Shown: piece after piece, positions 14,213 through 23,211 of the stretch
How the letters are laid out: the number at the start of each line of letters is the position of its first letter
How positions within the stretch are numbered: the first letter of the stretch is position 1
Origin: a virus
Length of the DNA stretch: 23,211 nucleotides
Virus record (IMG/VR): IMGVR_UViG_3300021963_000677
Coordinates: 1-23,211 of that record
Strand: one strand, 5' to 3'
Notes under the pieces: generated by a model
Database searches by the model: none
Seen by the model: the letters and a program-made list of their open reading frames with translations, nothing else
What the model was told of the DNA's origin: nothing
Translations under genes and position numbers: made by a program

Positions 14213-14791
14213 TCAGCTATTGGGAGCAGTCGGGATGATCGAACCAGTCTCAGAAGCATTCTGATGAATGCCAATGCGACCACGACTAGAAAGATCAAAG
14301 GTGACTTCCACAAGGTTGTCAGCCGGATAGCTTTCGTTGTAGTTCATCACGCAAGCAGTAAAAGCCACGCGATCATAATAATAAGTGGTGCCACTCACGC
14401 CAAGTTGCTTGTTGATTTCCACGTACACTTCATGGTTCTTGTCGTACCGCGAAGCGCTAATCACTTGGAAAGCTTCGTCAAAGCTATTGGGCAGGAAAGT
14501 GGTGCCGTCCACGTCTTTCTGGAAATAAGACGTAACAGAAGCAGTGGCAGCCGAAGTGGTAATCACACTATCAGCAAAGCCGCCGCCACCCAGCAGGTAG
14601 AATTCTTGGTTGCCATCGTTAAAGGCAACAGAAGCCGTCGTAGCAGCTTGCAGGGTATAAAGCGTAGGAGCGCCGCTCACGGTGAAGGTGGCGCCGCTCT
14701 GAGTGATAACTGGACGGCTGGTGCCGCCGATAGAGCCAACGCGCACAATCACGTCTTGGCTCTTTACCAGTTCAGTGGGATGGTAGAGCAT
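14213..14791 (-). CDS. Probable major tail tube protein (or other abundant virion protein)
   Basis: A 192-residue beta-rich protein, MLYHPTELVKSQDVIVRVGS to SETGSIIPTAPNS. It contains YDKNHEVYVEINKQLG and ends with NLVEVTFDLSSRGRIGIHQ, the kind of strand pattern that closes tail tube folds. It is Ser/Thr/Gly-rich and has no cysteine cluster or enzyme motif. It has a clear ribosome site (GAGGA, 9 nt before the ATG), and its codon choice resembles the capsid gene, with few TTA, CTA or TCA codons, so that the opposite strand is open over its whole length. The terminator directly after it also speaks for high, separately set expression. The position between neck proteins and tail terminator is the usual one for a tube gene; a second tube-fold gene at 1398-1823 is the rival. 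Confidence 0.55.
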   Translation of the reverse strand: MLYHPTELVKSQDVIVRVGSIGGTSRPVITQSGATFTVSGAPTLYTLQAATTASVAFNDGNQEFYLLGGGGFADSVITTSAATASVTSYFQKDVDGTTFLPNSFDEAFQVISASRYDKNHEVYVEINKQLGVSGTTYYYDRVAFTACVMNYNESYPADNLVEVTFDLSSRGRIGIHQNASETGSIIPTAPNS

Positions 14792-15968: not shown

Positions 15969-16871
15969 TCAAGCATTAGCTTGAACGTAAATCACGCTCT
16001 TGGGATAGTACAGGGCCACGCCACCAACGCGAGCATGGGCGGGAACAATGAATTCCAGACCGCGCTGCTGAGGGGGGAACAGCTCCAGGGGCTGAGGAAT
16101 GTGCAGTTGCACTTTCTCGGGATCGCGCTTGTACACAACCATGCGGTTGGTGTTCAGAGCGCTGTTGTCGGCATCCAGTTGGTTGATGGGCTCAACGTTG
16201 CGGATGAAGGGGTTGGTACGCAGGAAATACTCCAGCACAGTCACGTCCGAAGAATCGGAGTTACGAGTGGTGCTCACCTTGTTGTAGTCTTCCCACGCCA
16301 TCAGAATGGTGTCGGGCTGCTCCTTCATCTTGGAGGCATTGATAATGGCAGTCACGCCATAGTTCAGCAGCTCCAGCATTTCCTGGGCAGTCGCGGTGCT
16401 AAACCACTTATCAGCAGCAACCACGTCCACGGTGGAGTTGTTGAAGAAACCAGACAGACCCACGGTGCCCTCACCGAAGAAAGCGAGATCTTCCACTTTC
16501 TCTTCGTAGGCACGACGCACGGCAGCAGCACGACGCTGCTCCAGGGCGATGTTGGCCATTTGAGCAGCACGCAGCTCCTGCACGGTGTAGCCGAAGCTAC
16601 CGCCGAAGGAACGGATGTTGATGCTCTTCTCGGTCTGGCTGATGTCGGCACGGGGCAGATCATCAGCAGCGTCAGCGATCAGCTTGAACTCACCAGTGGC
16701 ATCCATGATGCGGTAGGTGAAGGTCTGAGCGCCAGGACCGGCTTCAGAAGTTACAGGCAGCACAGTCGGATATTTGATATCCGCATACTGCACTTCAAAC
16801 ACTTGGGGGCGGATGAACTCAAGCTGACGCTCAAGAAACAGACCCGCTTCATCCATACGGAATTCAGACAT
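15969..16871 (-). CDS. Major capsid protein, DUF2184 type (HK97 fold)
   Basis: A 300-residue protein starting MSEFRMDEAGLFLERQLEFI, with TFTYRIMDATGEFKLIADAA, SFGGSFGYTVQELRAAQMAN and LFPPQQRGLEFIVPAHARVG. The order of 'F..RQLE.I...v.e..Y', 'd..G.a..i...a.d.P..d', 'r......gf.Y...ELr.A...g..l...r..aA..a.e...e.laf.G....gl.Gl.N' is that of the DUF2184 family of phage capsid proteins. It has the strongest ribosome site in the head block (AGGAGG at 16885-16880, 8 nt before the ATG) and a markedly biased codon use. Its place after the protease/scaffold and cement genes agrees. Maturation cleavage is expected from the linked protease, but no cleavage site can be assigned by eye. Confidence 0.88.
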   Translation of the reverse strand: MSEFRMDEAGLFLERQLEFIRPQVFEVQYADIKYPTVLPVTSEAGPGAQTFTYRIMDATGEFKLIADAADDLPRADISQTEKSINIRSFGGSFGYTVQELRAAQMANIALEQRRAAAVRRAYEEKVEDLAFFGEGTVGLSGFFNNSTVDVVAADKWFSTATAQEMLELLNYGVTAIINASKMKEQPDTILMAWEDYNKVSTTRNSDSSDVTVLEYFLRTNPFIRNVEPINQLDADNSALNTNRMVVYKRDPEKVQLHIPQPLELFPPQQRGLEFIVPAHARVGGVALYYPKSVIYVQANA

Positions 16872-16886: not shown

Positions 16887-17447
16887 TCAAGAATCAGCAG
16901 AGAGGGTGAAGCTCGGACCATTCAGCTCCAGCAGGGCAATGCCGCTGCTAGTAGTGGAGGTGAGGAAACGAGCGTTGGCCAGACGGACGGTTTTGCCGGA
17001 AGCAAAAGCGTGCGAGAACTGACCAGCTTTGCCGGTGCCGCTTGCCGAATACAGCACGCGAACCACGGACTTGGGGGTGACGGCGCCAGTCACGTAGACG
17101 GCCACAGCACCTTGGTTCACAACATTCATGGCTTGCTGGTTCTTCACGCCAGGACGGCTGTTGGAATCCAGTGCGGTTTCGTCCACATAAGTGAGAGCGT
17201 TGATGCCCAGCACGGTGTCGGAAGTACCAGAAATAGTGGTGGCGGAGTTGGCAACAGTGCCAGCGTTGTTATAGACCACCACGTTGCCGAAAGCCAGGGC
17301 AGCGCCGGTTTCGTTAATCGAGGTGGAGATGGTGTTGTCGCGAATGTCAGACAGACCACCCTCCAGGTAGGCAGTGTGAGTCAGAGCATAAGCCTGCTGC
17401 ACACCACCAGCGGAGGCAGTGCCCGAGGTGGAGAAAGAAACGGCCAT
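16887..17447 (-). CDS. Capsid cement / decoration protein
   Basis: A 186-residue Ala/Thr/Ser/Val/Gly-rich protein with few charged residues: MAVSFSTSGTASAGGVQQAY, then NETGAALAFGNVVVYNN, then PKSVVRVLYSASGTGKAGQF. The low-complexity beta composition, the 'i.aG..v.fG.vv' type strand and the place between the scaffold/protease and capsid genes suit the family of phage cement proteins that decorate DUF2184 capsids, as in Bordetella phage BPP-1-like heads. Its Shine-Dalgarno (AGGAGG) lies inside the last codons of the upstream gene and the start comes 2 nt after that stop, so the two are coupled. The strong site and codon bias suggest copy numbers near those of the capsid protein. Confidence 0.7.
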   Translation of the reverse strand: MAVSFSTSGTASAGGVQQAYALTHTAYLEGGLSDIRDNTISTSINETGAALAFGNVVVYNNAGTVANSATTISGTSDTVLGINALTYVDETALDSNSRPGVKNQQAMNVVNQGAVAVYVTGAVTPKSVVRVLYSASGTGKAGQFSHAFASGKTVRLANARFLTSTTSSGIALLELNGPSFTLSADS

Positions 17448-17449
17448 AA

Positions 17450-18070
17450 TTACTTAGCCTCCTTAGAGATGGAGAGGGGCTTCTTCCATGCGTTTTGCAG
17501 CGTTTCCATGTAGGAAGACGGTGCGCTCACGGGAGAAGCAATGGAAGCTACGGCTTTACGCAGCTCATCAGTGGTGGCAGAATCATCGCGAGAAGATTCA
17601 GCCAGAGTGTCGAACATGGCCTGAACATAGTCGTCAGACTTTTCAGACAGATCGACACTATCGCCACGCACAGCTTTGATGGCATCCACCATCACTTCGC
17701 GGGCTTCCTTGCCGCTAAATTCATAAGCGGCATCCAGAACGGGCTTAGCCTTTCCAATCAGAGCGAGACGCTCTTCAACCATGGAATCAAGATTGATTTC
17801 CTTGGCGGCGGCCAGTTCACCTTTCAATTCTTCAACGTGCTCGGCCAGAGCATCAGCACGACCCTCAGCGGAATCGCACTTGCCCTGCATTTCCTTAGCC
17901 ATGGCGTCCATTTCGGACTTCATGGAATCGGCAGCGGCCTGCAGCTCGTCGTATTTTTTCTTCATGTCCTCGTAGGACATTTTGGCGTCTTCACGTTCTT
18001 TGGTGATCGCAAGAGCAACGCTCTCACTCACCTCAAACTCGGCGCCATCAAAAACGACTTTTGCAGTCAT
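17450..18070 (-). CDS. Internal-start scaffold protein nested in the protease gene
   Basis: An ATG at 18070, in frame with the protease (codon 193), is preceded by AAAGGAG (18085-18079) at 8 nt spacing, a better ribosome site than that of the full-length gene. Translation from here gives 206 residues starting MTAKVVFDGAEFEVSESVAL, which is exactly the scaffold domain with coiled coil and no protease. This is the lambda C/Nu3 plan, in which a nested start provides many scaffold copies per protease. The start site and its spacing are seen in the sequence; separate production is inferred. Confidence 0.78.
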   Translation of the reverse strand: MTAKVVFDGAEFEVSESVALAITKEREDAKMSYEDMKKKYDELQAAADSMKSEMDAMAKEMQGKCDSAEGRADALAEHVEELKGELAAAKEINLDSMVEERLALIGKAKPVLDAAYEFSGKEAREVMVDAIKAVRGDSVDLSEKSDDYVQAMFDTLAESSRDDSATTDELRKAVASIASPVSAPSSYMETLQNAWKKPLSISKEAK

Positions 18071-18646
18071 TAGATGGTCTCCTTTAGTAGAGAATAAAGA
18101 TGGATCGGCTGCATCTTGACGATCAAGATGGAGCTTCACTTGCGGGCCAGCGCGGCCCCGACGAACAATAGCGATGTGATTGCCGATGATCTCCTTTTGG
18201 ATGCCATCGTAATTTTCGCCACTTTCTGTAACGCCAGGCGTGGGATCATAATTCACCCTGTAGCCAGCGCTTACCTCACGAGCATCTCCCCGCATAATCC
18301 GTTCAATGGCATCTTTGTCAGTGATTGTCATCACTGCCTTGACGAAACCATTGTCATAGACAATCTCAGTGCCGCTAAAGCCCACTTGGTAGTCTTTAGT
18401 GTTTTCGGCATCAAGAAGAACAGGGGGATGTTCCGAAGTGATTGCCTTGCCCGCAAACGAAGCAAGACTCTCGGGAGACGCCACTTCCGTTTCTGGACGA
18501 TACTCTCGCCGCACTGAACCATCAGCATCTGTATAGAGCTGAATACCAGTGCGAGCAATCGATGCCCACGCCCGAAGATAACCTTCTGGCGTCATTTCGT
18601 ATTTCTCAATTGGCGAGAAATCGTACCGACAAGATGTGGTGCTCAT
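17450..18646 (-). CDS. Prohead protease (DUF2213) fused to scaffold
   Basis: A 398-residue protein. Residues 1-175 match the DUF2213 protease-like family: GKAITSEHPP with His73, a DNGFVKAVMTITDKDAIE strand-helix, AREVSAGYRV with Ser126, and GNHIAIVRRGRAG. His73 and Ser126 are where the catalytic pair of the herpesvirus/phage-type head protease is expected. From about 193 the protein is a scaffold: a short beta start (TAKVVFDGAEFEVSESVAL), then a long coiled coil with EMDAMAKEMQ-type repeats (about 215-290) and a helical C-terminus. The full form is expected to be a minor product that enters the prohead with the scaffold and digests it. This is the first head gene in the window; a portal gene does not precede it here. 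Confidence 0.85.
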   Translation of the reverse strand: MSTTSCRYDFSPIEKYEMTPEGYLRAWASIARTGIQLYTDADGSVRREYRPETEVASPESLASFAGKAITSEHPPVLLDAENTKDYQVGFSGTEIVYDNGFVKAVMTITDKDAIERIMRGDAREVSAGYRVNYDPTPGVTESGENYDGIQKEIIGNHIAIVRRGRAGPQVKLHLDRQDAADPSLFSTKGDHLMTAKVVFDGAEFEVSESVALAITKEREDAKMSYEDMKKKYDELQAAADSMKSEMDAMAKEMQGKCDSAEGRADALAEHVEELKGELAAAKEINLDSMVEERLALIGKAKPVLDAAYEFSGKEAREVMVDAIKAVRGDSVDLSEKSDDYVQAMFDTLAESSRDDSATTDELRKAVASIASPVSAPSSYMETLQNAWKKPLSISKEAK

Positions 18647-18709: not shown

Positions 18710-18991
18710 ATGATGTTCCTGGCAAAGAGCAATGCCGATGTGCTTAAAATGCCACACCAACAGGCACGACTGCTCATTGCCCAGCGCGTCAAAGACGCAC
18801 GCCTAAATAGCGGTCTCTCACAGAAAGATGTGGCTGAAATTCTCCATATCAGCCAAAGCTCTTATTCACGCATTGAACGCGCCACTGTCCCACCAGACTG
18901 CGTGCAAATTCGCACCCTTAGTGGCCTCTATGGAATAAGTGTGTTATGGCTAATGGGCTATCCGTCTTTTATCGCCCATTCCAGGCATTAA
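18710..18991 (+). CDS. XRE/Cro-type helix-turn-helix regulator
   Basis: A 93-residue protein read against the direction of its neighbours. Residues about 20-75 form a standard XRE helix-turn-helix: ARLNSGLSQKDVAEILHISQ followed by SSYSRIERATVPP, with the Q-K-D-V-A-E turn and an S-S-Y-S-R-I-E recognition helix. A short hydrophobic tail, GISVLWLMGY, may be for dimer contact. There is no peptidase domain, so it is not a LexA/CI-type cleavable repressor. The start may be ATG 18710, 18713 or 18749 (MPHQQARLL); none has a clear Shine-Dalgarno. Its stop overlaps that of the converging gene by 4 nt. A likely role is control of the divergent head block or of a lysis/lysogeny switch; this is inference from position. 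Confidence 0.8.
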   Translation: MMFLAKSNADVLKMPHQQARLLIAQRVKDARLNSGLSQKDVAEILHISQSSYSRIERATVPPDCVQIRTLSGLYGISVLWLMGYPSFIAHSRH

Positions 18992-19299: not shown

Positions 19300-19649
19300 T
19301 GGTCTTTTTGACGACTTTCTACCATCTTAATGATGCGATTTGCCCACGCCCTGCCGGCATCGCCTCCCCATAACAGCCAAGCAATATAACCGGCGTCGCC
19401 TTCCCCTCCGCTTTTGTTCTTTTCATGGCGAGAAAAGAATGCAGCCATACGTTTAATTGTGGCGAAGCTTACGGCCCCGCCACCAGCTAAATCACTAGCA
19501 CGAGCCACGCCGCTGCCAATGCCCTGCTTGCCCGCCTCTTGCGTAGTTAGCCCGCCTTTGCCATACTTCTTGCGAAGCTCCAGACCACGACGGGCTGCGC
19601 TTCTAACACCAGCAGGAGGGGAGAAGCTTTCTGCGTCACCCCTCAGCGC
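19296..19649 (-). CDS. Recurrent phage domain reached by -1 frameshift
   Basis: From the slippery site this frame gives 117 residues before a stop at 19296: SFSPPAGVRSAARRGLELRK, YGKGGLTTQEAGKQGIGSGV, then ARASDLAGGGAVSFATIKRM and AWLLWGGDAGRAWANRI. The pattern 'FsPP.GVR.aARRGLe.R..Yg.GG ... vaRA..L..G..vs..TIkRM..FF.RHe..K ... aWlLWGGdaGr.WA' is one I recognise as a widespread small module of phage genomes, often near head genes. The only ATG, at 19508, would remove the first third of the conserved module, and no usable ATG, GTG or TTG precedes it, so the frame is most simply reached by a -1 shift from the upstream gene. Function unknown. Confidence 0.72.
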   Translation of the reverse strand, partial: ALRGDAESFSPPAGVRSAARRGLELRKKYGKGGLTTQEAGKQGIGSGVARASDLAGGGAVSFATIKRMAAFFSRHEKNKSGGEGDAGYIAWLLWGGDAGRAWANRIIKMVESRQKDQ

Positions 19650-19673
19650 TTTTTTCCGCAGGAGGCATCCTCC
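19616..19673 (-). promoter_or_regulatory. Candidate programmed -1 frameshift signal (A AAA AAG)
   Basis: On the minus strand the heptamer A AAA AAG (19655-19649) is in the correct phase (GGA AAA AAG CGC). It is preceded 13 nt upstream by GGAGG (19673-19669) and followed after 4 nt by GAGGGG (19644-19639), which pairs perfectly with CCCCTC (19621-19616) across a 17 nt loop. The zero frame stops 4 nt later, at 19643-19645, and the -1 frame is open to 19296. A AAA AAG is the most shift-prone heptamer known in E. coli. Confidence 0.68.
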
Positions 19674-19909
19674 ATCTCCTCTTCTTCCATGCCCTCCTCT
19701 TCTTCTTCCTCTTCTCCAATGAGAGTCATGAAATAATTATCCCAATATTCATCGCTCTTACCTTGACGGCTCATGCCAGCCTCGGAAAGGGCAATTGCAA
19801 TGGCCTGCTTCCGATTTTTCACGGGCTTCTTGTCGCTGCCCTTGAGTGTGCCAGCTTTAAACTCGCGCATTACTTTGGCCACCTTGGCCTGTTTTTCTTT
19901 TTTTGTCAT
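19643..19909 (-). CDS. Small DUF6496-like protein with acidic tail (zero-frame product)
   Basis: An 88-residue protein with a basic N-terminal half, KVAKVMREFKAGTLKGSDKK and PVKNRKQAIAIALSEAGMSR, which matches the pattern 'kVM.EfK.GtLkss.gk.Vk.RKQAiAIALSEAg' of the DUF6496 family found in phages and bacteria. The second half is strongly acidic, with runs of Glu (about 67-84), before a short SCGKKR end at the slippery site. The acidic run comes from a GAA/GAG repeat at about 19,680-19,716. With the shift a 204-residue fusion results. No Shine-Dalgarno is seen before the ATG, and a 6 bp hairpin (19918-19934) lies in the 27 nt gap from the upstream gene. Confidence 0.7.
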   Translation of the reverse strand: MTKKEKQAKVAKVMREFKAGTLKGSDKKPVKNRKQAIAIALSEAGMSRQGKSDEYWDNYFMTLIGEEEEEEEGMEEEEMEDASCGKKR

Positions 19910-19936: not shown

Positions 19937-20653
19937 TCAATTAATAAATCCTATCGGCGCCGTTTCAATAGTCATGCCGGGGAAAAATTTATCACGATAC
20001 AAAACCAGCCCAGTAACAAGACGCTCCGCAATAAAGGCGATAGCTCGTTTGTCATATCCTTCAATGGAAAGAAAATGCTCTTTATGTTCTTCCCAAATAG
20101 GGAAAAGCCCATTAAATAAAACAGTGAAAAATCGTTTGTAATGTTGCAATGGCCCACGCGCCATGTTGCAGCCAATGAATAAATTTTGTGCCCACAATTT
20201 ATCGATTTCTTCGCGAGTAAAGAGCCATTTACCAGTATCAGCAAGTTTGCGAGTGATGGCAGGAGCGTCAAAGTCTGAATGGCCGCCATAAAATTGCTGC
20301 TCTAGCGTGCAATTAAAGACAGCCGGCTCGGGCACATAAAGCGTGTCTTCCGCATACCATTCATTCTTTGGTTCTAGCCAGTTACGACGATATTGTGCAT
20401 TGCCAATGTTCGTTTCTTTGGCATTTAAAAGCATCCAATGCACGCAAGACAACTCTCCCCAGCGTCGATTTAATTGAGAAAGAAAAGCTCCTTCGTCATC
20501 AAAAACATAGCCCCGCTCACGCAATATCCTGCGCTCAGCATCGACAATATTCCATGCCCCTCCCATAATTGGGACAATGCGAGACTGCGCCTCATAGCGC
20601 ACTTTCTCATTTTGAATGCACACTGCGTAAATGGTGCAATCAGACGGTTTCAT
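19937..20653 (-). CDS. DUF4422-like sugar transferase
   Basis: A 238-residue protein. It has LNRRWGELSCVHWMLLN at about 61-77 and NIGNAQYRRNWLEP at about 82-95, then CTLEQQFYGGHSDFDAP at about 115-131. The order 'N....ELT..YW.WKN....iGl.HYRR.f ... EQY...H...D' is that of DUF4422 proteins, which occur in exopolysaccharide and capsule loci and are regarded as glycosyltransferases. Two changes from the usual sequence stand out: SCVHWMLLN for the usual LT-YWAWKN, and NAQYRRNW for HYRRYF. No signal peptide or membrane segment is seen, so it is probably cytoplasmic. A good ribosome site (GAGGGAAG, 3 nt before the ATG) lies within the end of the upstream gene, with which it overlaps by 14 nt. Confidence 0.72.
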   Translation of the reverse strand: MKPSDCTIYAVCIQNEKVRYEAQSRIVPIMGGAWNIVDAERRILRERGYVFDDEGAFLSQLNRRWGELSCVHWMLLNAKETNIGNAQYRRNWLEPKNEWYAEDTLYVPEPAVFNCTLEQQFYGGHSDFDAPAITRKLADTGKWLFTREEIDKLWAQNLFIGCNMARGPLQHYKRFFTVLFNGLFPIWEEHKEHFLSIEGYDKRAIAFIAERLVTGLVLYRDKFFPGMTIETAPIGFIN

Positions 20654-21356
20654 AAACTTCCCTCGCAGCCCACATCTCGTTGTAATTATTTACGCCTTTA
20701 GCGCCAAGCCCCGTAAGATCACCGCCGCCAGCAGGCTTGCTCCAGGCCATGATCGTGCCATCAGGAAGCACAAATGCCCTGTTTTTCTGTTCATGCGTGG
20801 GCGTCAGCTCCAAATAATCGCCATAGACAAAATCGGGCTGACTGCCATTACATGCCAATGCCTTGCCAAGAAGTGTGGGGCCAGTGGGGCACAGTGGCGT
20901 TATGCCATAGTATTGTTCAACGCAGTTGGCCACAATCATTTCAATGGCGGTTTGTAAAGCTTCATTGTTGGGTTGTGAATACAAAACAGTAGTGGCGCAA
21001 GCCCAGCTCGTATAGCTAAATCGTTGAATATCGCGAAAGGCTAAAAATTTAATGCGATCTCCCACGTCCACAGCATTAACAGCCCGAACAGCAATGTCGA
21101 AATACCAGCCGCCAAAATGATTGAGGAGACAGAAGCGCCCAAGATCAGCTTTATACGAAAAAGGACGTAGCGAATCGTAAGCCCATAAAACGTGCCCACC
21201 ATAAACAGAAGCAATGAAATCACGGAGTTGTTCATTGTTGTAAATAGTGTGATTGGCTTTGGGGAAAACTGAATCAATAGTGCTAGTGGCATATTGAAGA
21301 AATGGAGAAAGTTTTTCTTCCGGATTGGTAGTTAGAAAAATTTGAGAGATTTCCAT
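20640..21356 (-). CDS. GT32-like glycosyltransferase with altered DXD motif
   Basis: A 238-residue protein of the family with the sugar-binding DXD region (Gly_transf_sug, GT32-type). The key stretch is YKADLGRFCLLNHFGGWYFD (69-87), with Asp71, Arg74 and the GGWYFD turn. The normal D-x-D at this place reads Asp87-Ile-Ala89 here, so the second Asp is missing. A second block, ITPLCPTGPTLLGKAL (about 150-170), matches the 'tGP......' region typical of the family. Products usually transfer a hexose from a nucleotide sugar to a glycan or protein. The start at 21356 lies 5 nt after the GT4-like stop. It is the middle gene of a three-gene unit. Confidence 0.75.
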   Translation of the reverse strand: MEISQIFLTTNPEEKLSPFLQYATSTIDSVFPKANHTIYNNEQLRDFIASVYGGHVLWAYDSLRPFSYKADLGRFCLLNHFGGWYFDIAVRAVNAVDVGDRIKFLAFRDIQRFSYTSWACATTVLYSQPNNEALQTAIEMIVANCVEQYYGITPLCPTGPTLLGKALACNGSQPDFVYGDYLELTPTHEQKNRAFVLPDGTIMAWSKPAGGGDLTGLGAKGVNNYNEMWAAREVYETV

Positions 21357-21361
21357 GATGA

Positions 21362-22576
21362 TCAGACAATTTTTGCAGGAGTGCCAAAGCCTTTAAATTC
21401 TTCCTCTGGCTGTTTTGCTAACACTGCTTCAACTGTTTCCAGCATCTTTTGCGTAATATCTGGCCAAATGAATTGTTCAATGCGCTCCTTGCACCATTGT
21501 CCATCAGCCTTAAGTTTGTCACGATCTTCGTAGTACGCCGTAAGCAACTCAGCCAAACTATCTGGAGATGGCTGCCCACGATCTAAGCCATAGTTGCGAT
21601 CAACTTCCCAACTTTCAATGGCAATCCTTGGCACATCACTAAAGATTTCCTTGCAACTCGTATGGTCTGGCACCAATTGCGCCACACCAACTGCAGCGTG
21701 CTCAGTGTTAACAAGTCCCCAGCCCTCGCCAATGCAAGTGTTGATGCCAATATCAGCGGAGTTGTAAACCATGTTTAATTGCTCAACAGTCAAGCAATTG
21801 GCAGTCGAGAAATGCGGACTTGTCAAAATAAGTTTGCCAGTGGCATCGTATCCCTCGTCACGCGCTACGCGCTTGAACAGCGGAACCAAGTCCCAGCCCA
21901 TATCTTTGCTGCCCATATTTAACCACAAACGTGCATCAGGCTTGTCTTTGGCAAATTTAATGAAGCCTTTAATTGTCAAGTCAATGCGCTTGCGTGGCTG
22001 ATTCCTGTTGCCATTGAAAACAATAAAGGCGTCTTGTGGTACGCCCAAGCTTTCCCGACATTCTTCCTTCTCCAATGGGAAAAATTTGGTGAAATCAGTG
22101 CCATGAGGGATGATGCCCACTTCCTTCTTGTAGCCAATCTTGCGAATTTCCTCTGCACCAAACTCCGTGTAAGTGGCAATGCCATCCCAAGCGTCAATAG
22201 GAGCAAGTAATTCAGGGAAAATACCATAACTGTCAATGGGAGTGTAAACAAAAAATTTAAAACCAAGCTTTTCCTTGAGTTCCTTTACGGCGTCCCACAA
22301 CGTAATGGCCACCCACACATCATTGGTCACCCATACAAGGTCAGGCTTAATGCGTTGCACTAAGTCTGCAATTCGATGGGAGCCAAACGGATCGGTGCCA
22401 TGGAGCATGGCCGGATAAGTGTCGTATTTACGCGCTTCCTCGTGCGGATCGCCGTGGTAATTCACGGCTAATACGCTCACATCATGATGCTCTGCCAATG
22501 CAGGAAGCAAGTTTTCGGCCACACGGCCAAACCCAGTTTCCACAAAAGCATCACCACAGTATAAAATTTTTGCCAT
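21362..22576 (-). CDS. GT4-type glycosyltransferase
   Basis: A 404-residue protein with the two-domain GT-B layout. The N-terminal domain opens MAKILYCGDAFVETGFGRVA, with a Gly-rich donor-side loop, and has DLVWVTNDVW at about 79-88. The C-terminal domain has FNGNRNQPRKRIDLTIKGF (about 187-205, the Arg/Lys region that binds the donor diphosphate) and GEGWGLVNTEHAAVG with Glu284 and Glu292, the E-x7-E motif of GT4 retaining enzymes. The length is normal and all key residues are present, so it should be active. It begins the minus-strand unit, about 60 nt from the divergent gene, with no Shine-Dalgarno before its ATG. The acceptor (phage protein, host surface glycan or DNA) cannot be told from sequence. 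Confidence 0.88.
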   Translation of the reverse strand: MAKILYCGDAFVETGFGRVAENLLPALAEHHDVSVLAVNYHGDPHEEARKYDTYPAMLHGTDPFGSHRIADLVQRIKPDLVWVTNDVWVAITLWDAVKELKEKLGFKFFVYTPIDSYGIFPELLAPIDAWDGIATYTEFGAEEIRKIGYKKEVGIIPHGTDFTKFFPLEKEECRESLGVPQDAFIVFNGNRNQPRKRIDLTIKGFIKFAKDKPDARLWLNMGSKDMGWDLVPLFKRVARDEGYDATGKLILTSPHFSTANCLTVEQLNMVYNSADIGINTCIGEGWGLVNTEHAAVGVAQLVPDHTSCKEIFSDVPRIAIESWEVDRNYGLDRGQPSPDSLAELLTAYYEDRDKLKADGQWCKERIEQFIWPDITQKMLETVEAVLAKQPEEEFKGFGTPAKIV

Positions 22577-22591
22577 GACAAAACAAGAATC

Positions 22592-22618
22592 TTCGACATC
22601 ATAAGCCGCGTTTATACT
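22592..22618 (+). promoter_or_regulatory. Possible plus-strand promoter of the divergent gene
   Basis: TTCGAC (22592-22597), a 15 nt spacer and TATACT (22613-22618) lie ahead of the plus-strand ATG at 22639. A start near 22625 would give a leader of about 14 nt containing the GGAGAG ribosome site (22631-22636). The -10 box is good; spacer and -35 box are poor. Confidence 0.4.
22598..22603 (-). promoter_or_regulatory. Possible -10 box for the glycosyltransferase unit
   Basis: On the minus strand TATGAT (22603-22598) fits the -10 consensus at five of six positions and is about 22 nt before the ATG at 22576. No good -35 box is seen 16-18 nt upstream, so the promoter may need an activator. It overlaps the plus-strand promoter, so both could not be occupied at once. 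Confidence 0.32.
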
Positions 22619-22638
22619 ATGGGCGCAGCAGGAGAGTC

Positions 22639-23211
22639 ATGCGATTGCAGCCAGAGTCAGTGCATTTTTGCATCAGCACTTGCCAGAAATTTGCAGCCCA
22701 CACTCTGCCCGTGATTGTTCCGGCCCTGCTGCGTCTTGGCATTTCCAGAGAACATATTTTGATTGTCAACGGTGGCTGGCAAGATTCTCTGACTATTGCC
22801 GACTACGAGGGCATTCCCATGCTCTTGACGCCGCAAAATTCCTTTGAATACACGCCCCTCATTGAAATTGTTGAGCATCATATTGAAGCTGACTATTGGT
22901 TCCTCCTGCACGACACCTGCATCCCTGGTCCGTCCTTTTACGAGCTAGCACTATCCTTGCCAGTAGACCGGCCTGAGAAGGTGGCGCTTAAGGGAACGCC
23001 CTCCATGAGCGTTGGCCTCTATCGCATGGACTATCTTCTGCGCCACAAGGATCGCTTGATGGCCATTAAAAACACCGACTGCTCGCCCGAAACTTTGCAA
23101 TGGTGGAAGCAATGGGGAGTGCCAAATGAAGACTATATGCTCTGGAAGTTAGACGACGTGCCTACGCACGTTTACCACCCTGATCGCCATGGTCCAGATG
23201 AATGGAACTAT
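22639..23211 (+). CDS. Glycosyltransferase-like (GT-A) protein, cut off at the right edge
   Basis: ATG at 22639, with GGAGAG 2 nt before it, opens a frame of 191 codons without a stop to the edge of the window. Residues 7-60 have an alternating strand/helix pattern (HFCISTCQKFAAHTLPVIVP; REHILIVNGGWQDS), and YWFLLHDTCIPGPSFYEL at 86-102 has a HDT tripeptide where GT-A enzymes carry DXD. SMSVGLYRMDYLL at 122-134 is also of this type. I read it as a small GT-A-like enzyme, perhaps with a weak or altered metal site, but no exact family is assigned. It is divergent from the other three sugar-transfer genes. Confidence 0.55.
   Translation, partial: MRLQPESVHFCISTCQKFAAHTLPVIVPALLRLGISREHILIVNGGWQDSLTIADYEGIPMLLTPQNSFEYTPLIEIVEHHIEADYWFLLHDTCIPGPSFYELALSLPVDRPEKVALKGTPSMSVGLYRMDYLLRHKDRLMAIKNTDCSPETLQWWKQWGVPNEDYMLWKLDDVPTHVYHPDRHGPDEWNY

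Follow-up and report, generated by a model that had tools for sequence, protein, structure and literature searches.

Four glycosyltransferase-like genes beside the head genes of a virus were analysed in the IMG/VR virus record IMGVR_UViG_3300021963_000677, whose 23,211 bases are referred to here as the window, and were found to belong to a larger island of sugar genes shared by all 103 distinct relatives examined. The window covers part of the genome of an S-CBS4-like Synechococcus siphovirus, with head genes of 76% DNA identity to Synechococcus phage S-CBS4, and its host is presumably a cyanobacterium, judged from this relative. The island is characterised by its gene content and order, its universality and modularity and the families of its enzymes, and it probably serves virion glycosylation, in which sugars forming a constant core and an exchangeable outer part, different from one virus to another, are placed on a virion protein.

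Gene content, extent and position of the island

The part of the island that lies in the window comprises the following features, GT standing for glycosyltransferase:

19937..20653, minus strand: DUF4422 or GT111-like (galactofuranosyl)transferase; Pfam DUF4422 at 5.7e-12, cut-off passed
20640..21356, minus strand: GT32-like GT-A glycosyltransferase; Gly_transf_sug at 2.8e-4, Och1 fold match at 5e-7
21362..22576, minus strand: GT4 retaining GT-B glycosyltransferase, the constant island gene; PHROG 2170 at 3e-53
22577..22638, no strand: divergent intergenic region of 62 bases between the GT-A-like gene and GT4
22639..23211, plus strand: GT-A-like glycosyltransferase (cluster c6), 191 of 232 codons, cut by the window end

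An earlier sequence-only reading had described GT4, GT32-like and DUF4422 genes as one tight unit with a divergent GT-A-like gene, and the open reading frames bore this out: GT4 and the GT32-like gene are spaced by 5 bases and the latter overlaps DUF4422 by 14 bases, so that the three form one unit. Compared with the close relative L009, all four sugar genes show ratios of nonsynonymous to synonymous substitution (dN/dS) of 0.03-0.06, indicating purifying selection, and they are conserved across dozens of contigs; they are therefore regarded as real genes. The same reading had counted four genes. The four are indeed present, but the true extent is seven genes and the window stops inside the island, as intact relatives of the window type carry three more sugar genes past the window end, followed by MuF, portal and terminase genes. 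In L009 (6853-9240) these are genes for a Rossmann-type protein (231 amino acids), an AP_endonuc_2 TIM barrel and a flavin adenine dinucleotide (FAD) oxidoreductase, which prolong the island ahead of gp13, portal and terminase.

Five scans of viral contigs led to several hundred loci, from which 103 distinct islands were obtained, delimited by gp13/portal genes at one end and by DUF6496/protease at the other. In the relatives the island sits between portal/MuF and head-protease/cement/capsid genes, and its core GTs share the orientation of the head genes. GT4 is present in 103 of 103 islands, the GT32-like gene in 100 and DUF4422 in 98. Loci fetched by the capsid protein only, used to avoid the bias of fetching by GT genes, gave the same picture for GT4, which was present in all 26 with enough upstream sequence; in each of 17 long relatives it occupies a single site. 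Phage GTs are thus locked to virion genes, as is characteristic of a virion-glycosylation system. Host cargo, which according to the sequence-only reading should be absent from close relatives, and chance acquisition were both rejected, since the island is universal, occurring in 103/103 distinct relatives.

Exchangeable cassettes

The constant GT4 and the near-constant GT32-like gene are surrounded by exchangeable sugar-tailoring cassettes of these types:

49 islands, the window's type: left-hand cassette of Rossmann-type gene, TIM-barrel isomerase and FAD oxidoreductase, with GT-A-like gene
12 islands: left-hand cassette without GT-A-like gene
17 islands: methyltransferase cassette
13 islands: C-methyltransferase and O-methyltransferase cassette, mostly with an additional small protein
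4 islands: epimerase and DegT aminotransferase cassette
3 islands, plus one mixed: unassigned 432-amino-acid gene with FkbM or other methyltransferase
2 islands: UDP-galactopyranose mutase cassette (UDP, uridine diphosphate)
1 island: radical-SAM gene cassette
2 islands: no cassette

Cassette genes were named with the support of Pfam; the Rossmann-type gene has no Pfam match and was named from its N-terminal sequence only. A further-reaching interpretation, to which we give a little less than even weight, is that these aquatic cyanophages carry a capsid-locked modular glycan locus following a logic like that of O-antigen loci, in which tailoring cassettes are block-exchanged at one site around the constant GT4/GT32-like core pair, and similar capsids (major head protein of about 90% identity) come to lie under chemically different sugar coats.

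The 7.2-kb island of L261 is composite, containing two cassettes, the 432-amino-acid gene with methyltransferase and the C-/O-methyltransferase set; it is likely a recombination intermediate, which fits block recombination. HNH endonuclease-like genes (cluster c11, by inspection) occur at varied points in seven islands (L145, L206, L209, L219, L255, L269, L362) and are perhaps linked to the exchange of blocks.

Enzymes of the island

The GT4 protein is assigned to the GT4 family on the strength of its EX7E motif and two-domain profile. Pfam profiles Glyco_transf_4 (1e-6) and Glycos_transf_1 were matched at cut-off, the catalytic EX7E motif is found in 102 of 103 copies (E284/E292 invariant in A1), and an NGNRNxPRKR (NRNxxRKR) motif is conserved. 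The only strong match among solved structures is B736L of chlorovirus NY-2A (4e-20 with the single sequence, 2.5e-28 with the profile), which spans the full length of GT4; the next, mannosyltransferase PimB, is far weaker (3e-5). A scan of cellular genomes returned two remote matches only (39% and 33%), although it requires exact short peptides and is not proof of absence. The 39%-identical GT4 was located in an Arenicellales metagenome-assembled genome (L371, 6001-7185) beside genes for an FkbM methyltransferase and an S74 endosialidase-chaperone, a phage-like setting suggestive of a tail-fibre locus in a prophage that uses this type of enzyme.

The GT32-like protein scores 22 bits with Gly_transf_sug against a cut-off of 23, and its relative in L047 reaches 32 bits. 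Its structural model is nearest to Och1, the C-terminal half of the model being of low confidence. ADxGR and GGxY are kept, whereas the DXD motif is incomplete in 100 of 100 copies (DI(A/G) in 99, DVG in one), the second Asp being replaced by Ala or Gly, and hence the protein is named only ‘GT32-like’; possibly it is a metal-independent GT32 variant.

With 46 bits against a cut-off of 25, the Pfam assignment of DUF4422 is clear, and its profile matches the N-terminal domain of WbbM at 1.1e-10. The DUF4422 domain of WbbM is a GT111 galactofuranosyltransferase (PMC12269835), so that by homology the window protein is a GT111 member, for which use of UDP-galactofuranose (UDP-Galf) as donor is predicted. 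UDP-galactopyranose (UDP-Galp) mutase, the maker of this donor, occurs in 2 of 103 islands only, and most members may therefore use a host-made or different donor. Among the shared GTs DUF4422 is the most variable, and no match to it was found among isolate phages.

The GT-A-like protein, of 232 residues at full length in L009, matches no sequence family and received no specific name from NCBIfam. Its model is of low confidence (predicted local distance difference test, pLDDT, 58) and resembles GT-A enzymes such as POMGNT1 and GnT-I (Z about 11), but scores just as high are reached by nucleotidyltransferases, which share this broad fold, wherefore only ‘GT-A-like’ is claimed. An LLHDTC motif is present in 49 of 49 copies. 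Comparison with PDB sequences (single and profile) gave nothing credible, and luciferase matches were dismissed as chance. Promoter- and terminator-like matches, among them the promoter-like ones of the divergent intergenic region, were no better than shuffled background, and no claim on transcription is based on them.

Several GTs together with sugar-modifying enzymes support well the stepwise synthesis of an oligosaccharide that had been proposed from the sequence.

Candidate acceptors of the predicted glycan

The GTs of the window are without membrane segments by hydropathy (highest 19-residue mean 1.5), and all island enzymes appear soluble. Anchor genes of rival functions were searched for in the 17 long relatives, including complete S-CBS4 and metagenomic records that may be incomplete; control genomes were positive for every anchor-gene profile except TET/JBP. 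Among these 17, GtrA (PF04138) and PMT_2 (PF13231) were found in none, and Wzx, ABC-2 and Bac_transf gave nothing above cut-off. The earlier preference for a cytoplasmic acceptor over serotype conversion agrees with this result, and Gtr-type serotype conversion with its own export, which calls for a flippase or membrane GT, was rejected on the basis of these 17 records.

The main rival, which we consider unlikely, holds that the island alters the surface polysaccharide of the infected host (lipopolysaccharide or exopolysaccharide, LPS/EPS) by adding sugars to host-made lipid-linked intermediates, and so blocks superinfection or the rebinding of progeny to debris. Host lipid-linked acceptors would make phage carrier and flippase genes unnecessary, GT4, GT32, GT111 and UDP-galactopyranose mutase are enzymes characteristic of O-antigen loci, and the characterised GT111 member, WbbM, makes O-antigen; however, none of the five export- and membrane-related families just named was detected in the long relatives, and the island lies within the head block, not among early or moron genes.

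Glycosylation of DNA is an established function of phage GTs, Shewanella phage Thanatos reportedly being an example, and modified bases had also been named as a conceivable acceptor. That the enzymes glycosylate modified phage DNA bases against restriction is nevertheless very improbable, and the idea was rejected for want of genes supplying hydroxylated bases: in the 17 long relatives ThyA-type/dCMP-hydroxymethylase (PF00303) was absent throughout and TET/JBP (PF12851) never exceeded the cut-off, with one sub-threshold match of 11 bits in G003, the record of L047 (29277-29615). S-CBS4 carries a thy1-type thymidylate synthase and a dCTP deaminase, the normal deoxythymidine route, and methyl, amino and Galf tailoring as well as the head-block site are unlike known DNA-modification loci.

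For the virion, the window encodes head protease, cement protein, major head protein, tail and tape-measure proteins, and the genes adjoining the island are:

15969..16871, minus strand: major head protein, PHROG 264, candidate acceptor
16887..17447, minus strand: cement protein, Phage_cement, 24% Ser+Thr, candidate acceptor
17450..18646, minus strand: head maturation protease, DUF2213, PHROG 530, downstream virion context
19643..19909, minus strand: DUF6496 small acidic protein, right-hand island border

Whether a protein follows cassette type beyond general relatedness was assessed with a partial Mantel test on 36 dereplicated genomes with 2000 permutations. Co-variation with cassette type was obtained for portal (7/2000), major head protein (22/2000), DUF4422 (27/2000) and cement protein (36/2000); it was absent for gp13, protease, small head genes, major tail protein (440/2000), GT4 and GT32. 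For DUF4422 a shared pathway fits the co-variation, because GT4 and GT32 separate the left cassette from it. The values for portal, major head and cement proteins are suggestive and point weakly to these as acceptors; both a virion protein as acceptor and the choice among the candidates are inferred.

Sugars might instead be placed on tail tube, tail-tip or receptor-binding proteins and tune adsorption. Ser/Thr-rich tail proteins are encoded at 1398-1823 (25% Ser+Thr) and 14213-14791 (21%), and in mycobacteriophages both tail and capsid proteins are reportedly glycosylated. Since the major tail protein does not co-vary with cassette type and the island adjoins head genes, not tail genes, this alternative is quite improbable.

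For glycosylation of a head protein the following scheme is proposed, which covers the donors, the sequence in which sugars are added, the timing and the benefit. GT4 and the GT32-like enzyme would build the constant inner part of the chain, and the DUF4422/GT111 enzyme and the swappable cassette would build and tailor the variable outer sugar, in the window type by the GT-A-like gene together with the FAD oxidoreductase, TIM-barrel sugar isomerase/epimerase and Rossmann-type gene beyond the window end. Nucleotide-sugar donors would be supplied by the host, because no NTP_transferase (sugar nucleotidyltransferase) was found above cut-off in the 17 long relatives. The short chain would be made in the cytoplasm, given that all enzymes appear soluble, with a head protein as its most likely direct acceptor, while the neighbouring head genes are expressed; the benefit may be masking of the particle or altered attachment.

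Several points weigh against this proposal. Once corrected for ten or more tests, the co-variation is weak; it stems from few independent cassette changes, and the portal and major head protein signal could come from slow evolution, as slowly evolving proteins best hold deep signal. Adjacency to head genes is no proof of a head acceptor, a conserved Ser/Thr-rich acceptor stretch was not demonstrated, and the glycan itself is predicted from genes. Lacking the second Asp of DXD, the GT32-like enzyme may differ in activity or metal use. Furthermore, capsid glycans of NY-2A are without mannose, so that the acceptor of B736L is unproven (PMC9614988).

Comparison with known systems

In S-CBS4, gp014-gp016 (NC_016766) occupy the same site between portal/gp13 and protease/capsid, with a GT4 that is 61% identical and a methyltransferase cassette; unlike in the window, a GT2 (gp015) replaces GT32, and DUF4422 and the left-hand cassette are missing. 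These genes are annotated only as glycosyltransferases and methyltransferase, and no publication on the S-CBS4 glycosyltransferases was found in the open-licence literature.

Virion glycosylation by phage-encoded GTs has been reported for mycobacteriophages (Freeman 2023, in the form cited by PMC10568470). The likeness to the island would be one of function, phage GTs being tied to glycans on capsid/tail proteins; many tailoring enzymes and a swappable-cassette layout are features of the cyanophage island. Chloroviruses glycosylate their capsids autonomously with a conserved glycan core (PMC7826918). GT4 is homologous to NY-2A B736L (2.5e-28; compare PBCV-1 A546L), and several virus-encoded GTs, methyltransferases and a conserved core with variable decorations are further shared features; chloroviruses, however, are large DNA viruses of green algae with N-linked glycans on the major capsid protein. 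B736L binds GDP-mannose (GDP, guanosine diphosphate) best, and its own acceptor is unproven (PMC9614988).

WbbM is resembled by the DUF4422 profile match and the co-occurrence of UDP-Galp mutase in two relatives, yet the window protein stands alone at 238 amino acids, matches over only about 70 residues and has no partner for O-antigen export. Microcystis phage Mae-JY09 and Tetrasphaera phage TJE1 likewise have a GT4 near capsid or terminase/portal genes, along with epimerase or FkbM methyltransferase genes, but these are unrelated phages with other virion genes and a GT4 of only 24-33% identity, and any shared function would be hypothetical.

Phage virion glycosylation is thus already known, whereas a near-universal, swappable, capsid-locked cyanophage cassette appears unreported in the searchable open-licence literature. 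If our interpretation is true, the sugar coating of the particle would be, for a widespread group of viruses of cyanobacteria, a core trait and not an accessory one, and coat chemistry would be swapped by recombination much like bacterial surface antigens. Such glycans might, for example, protect against host defence, grazers or particles, or tune attachment; S-CBS4 on Synechococcus CB0101 offers a cultured system in which their role can be tested without an animal immune system. The finding also ties a glycosyltransferase of phages to a counterpart in chloroviruses, which infect green algae.

Further observation in the head block

An XRE-type helix-turn-helix gene (18710-18991, plus strand) lies inside the head block but on the opposite strand, with the protease gene on one side of it and the small head genes on the other; it is kept in S-CBS4, where it is annotated as repressor, and in relatives.

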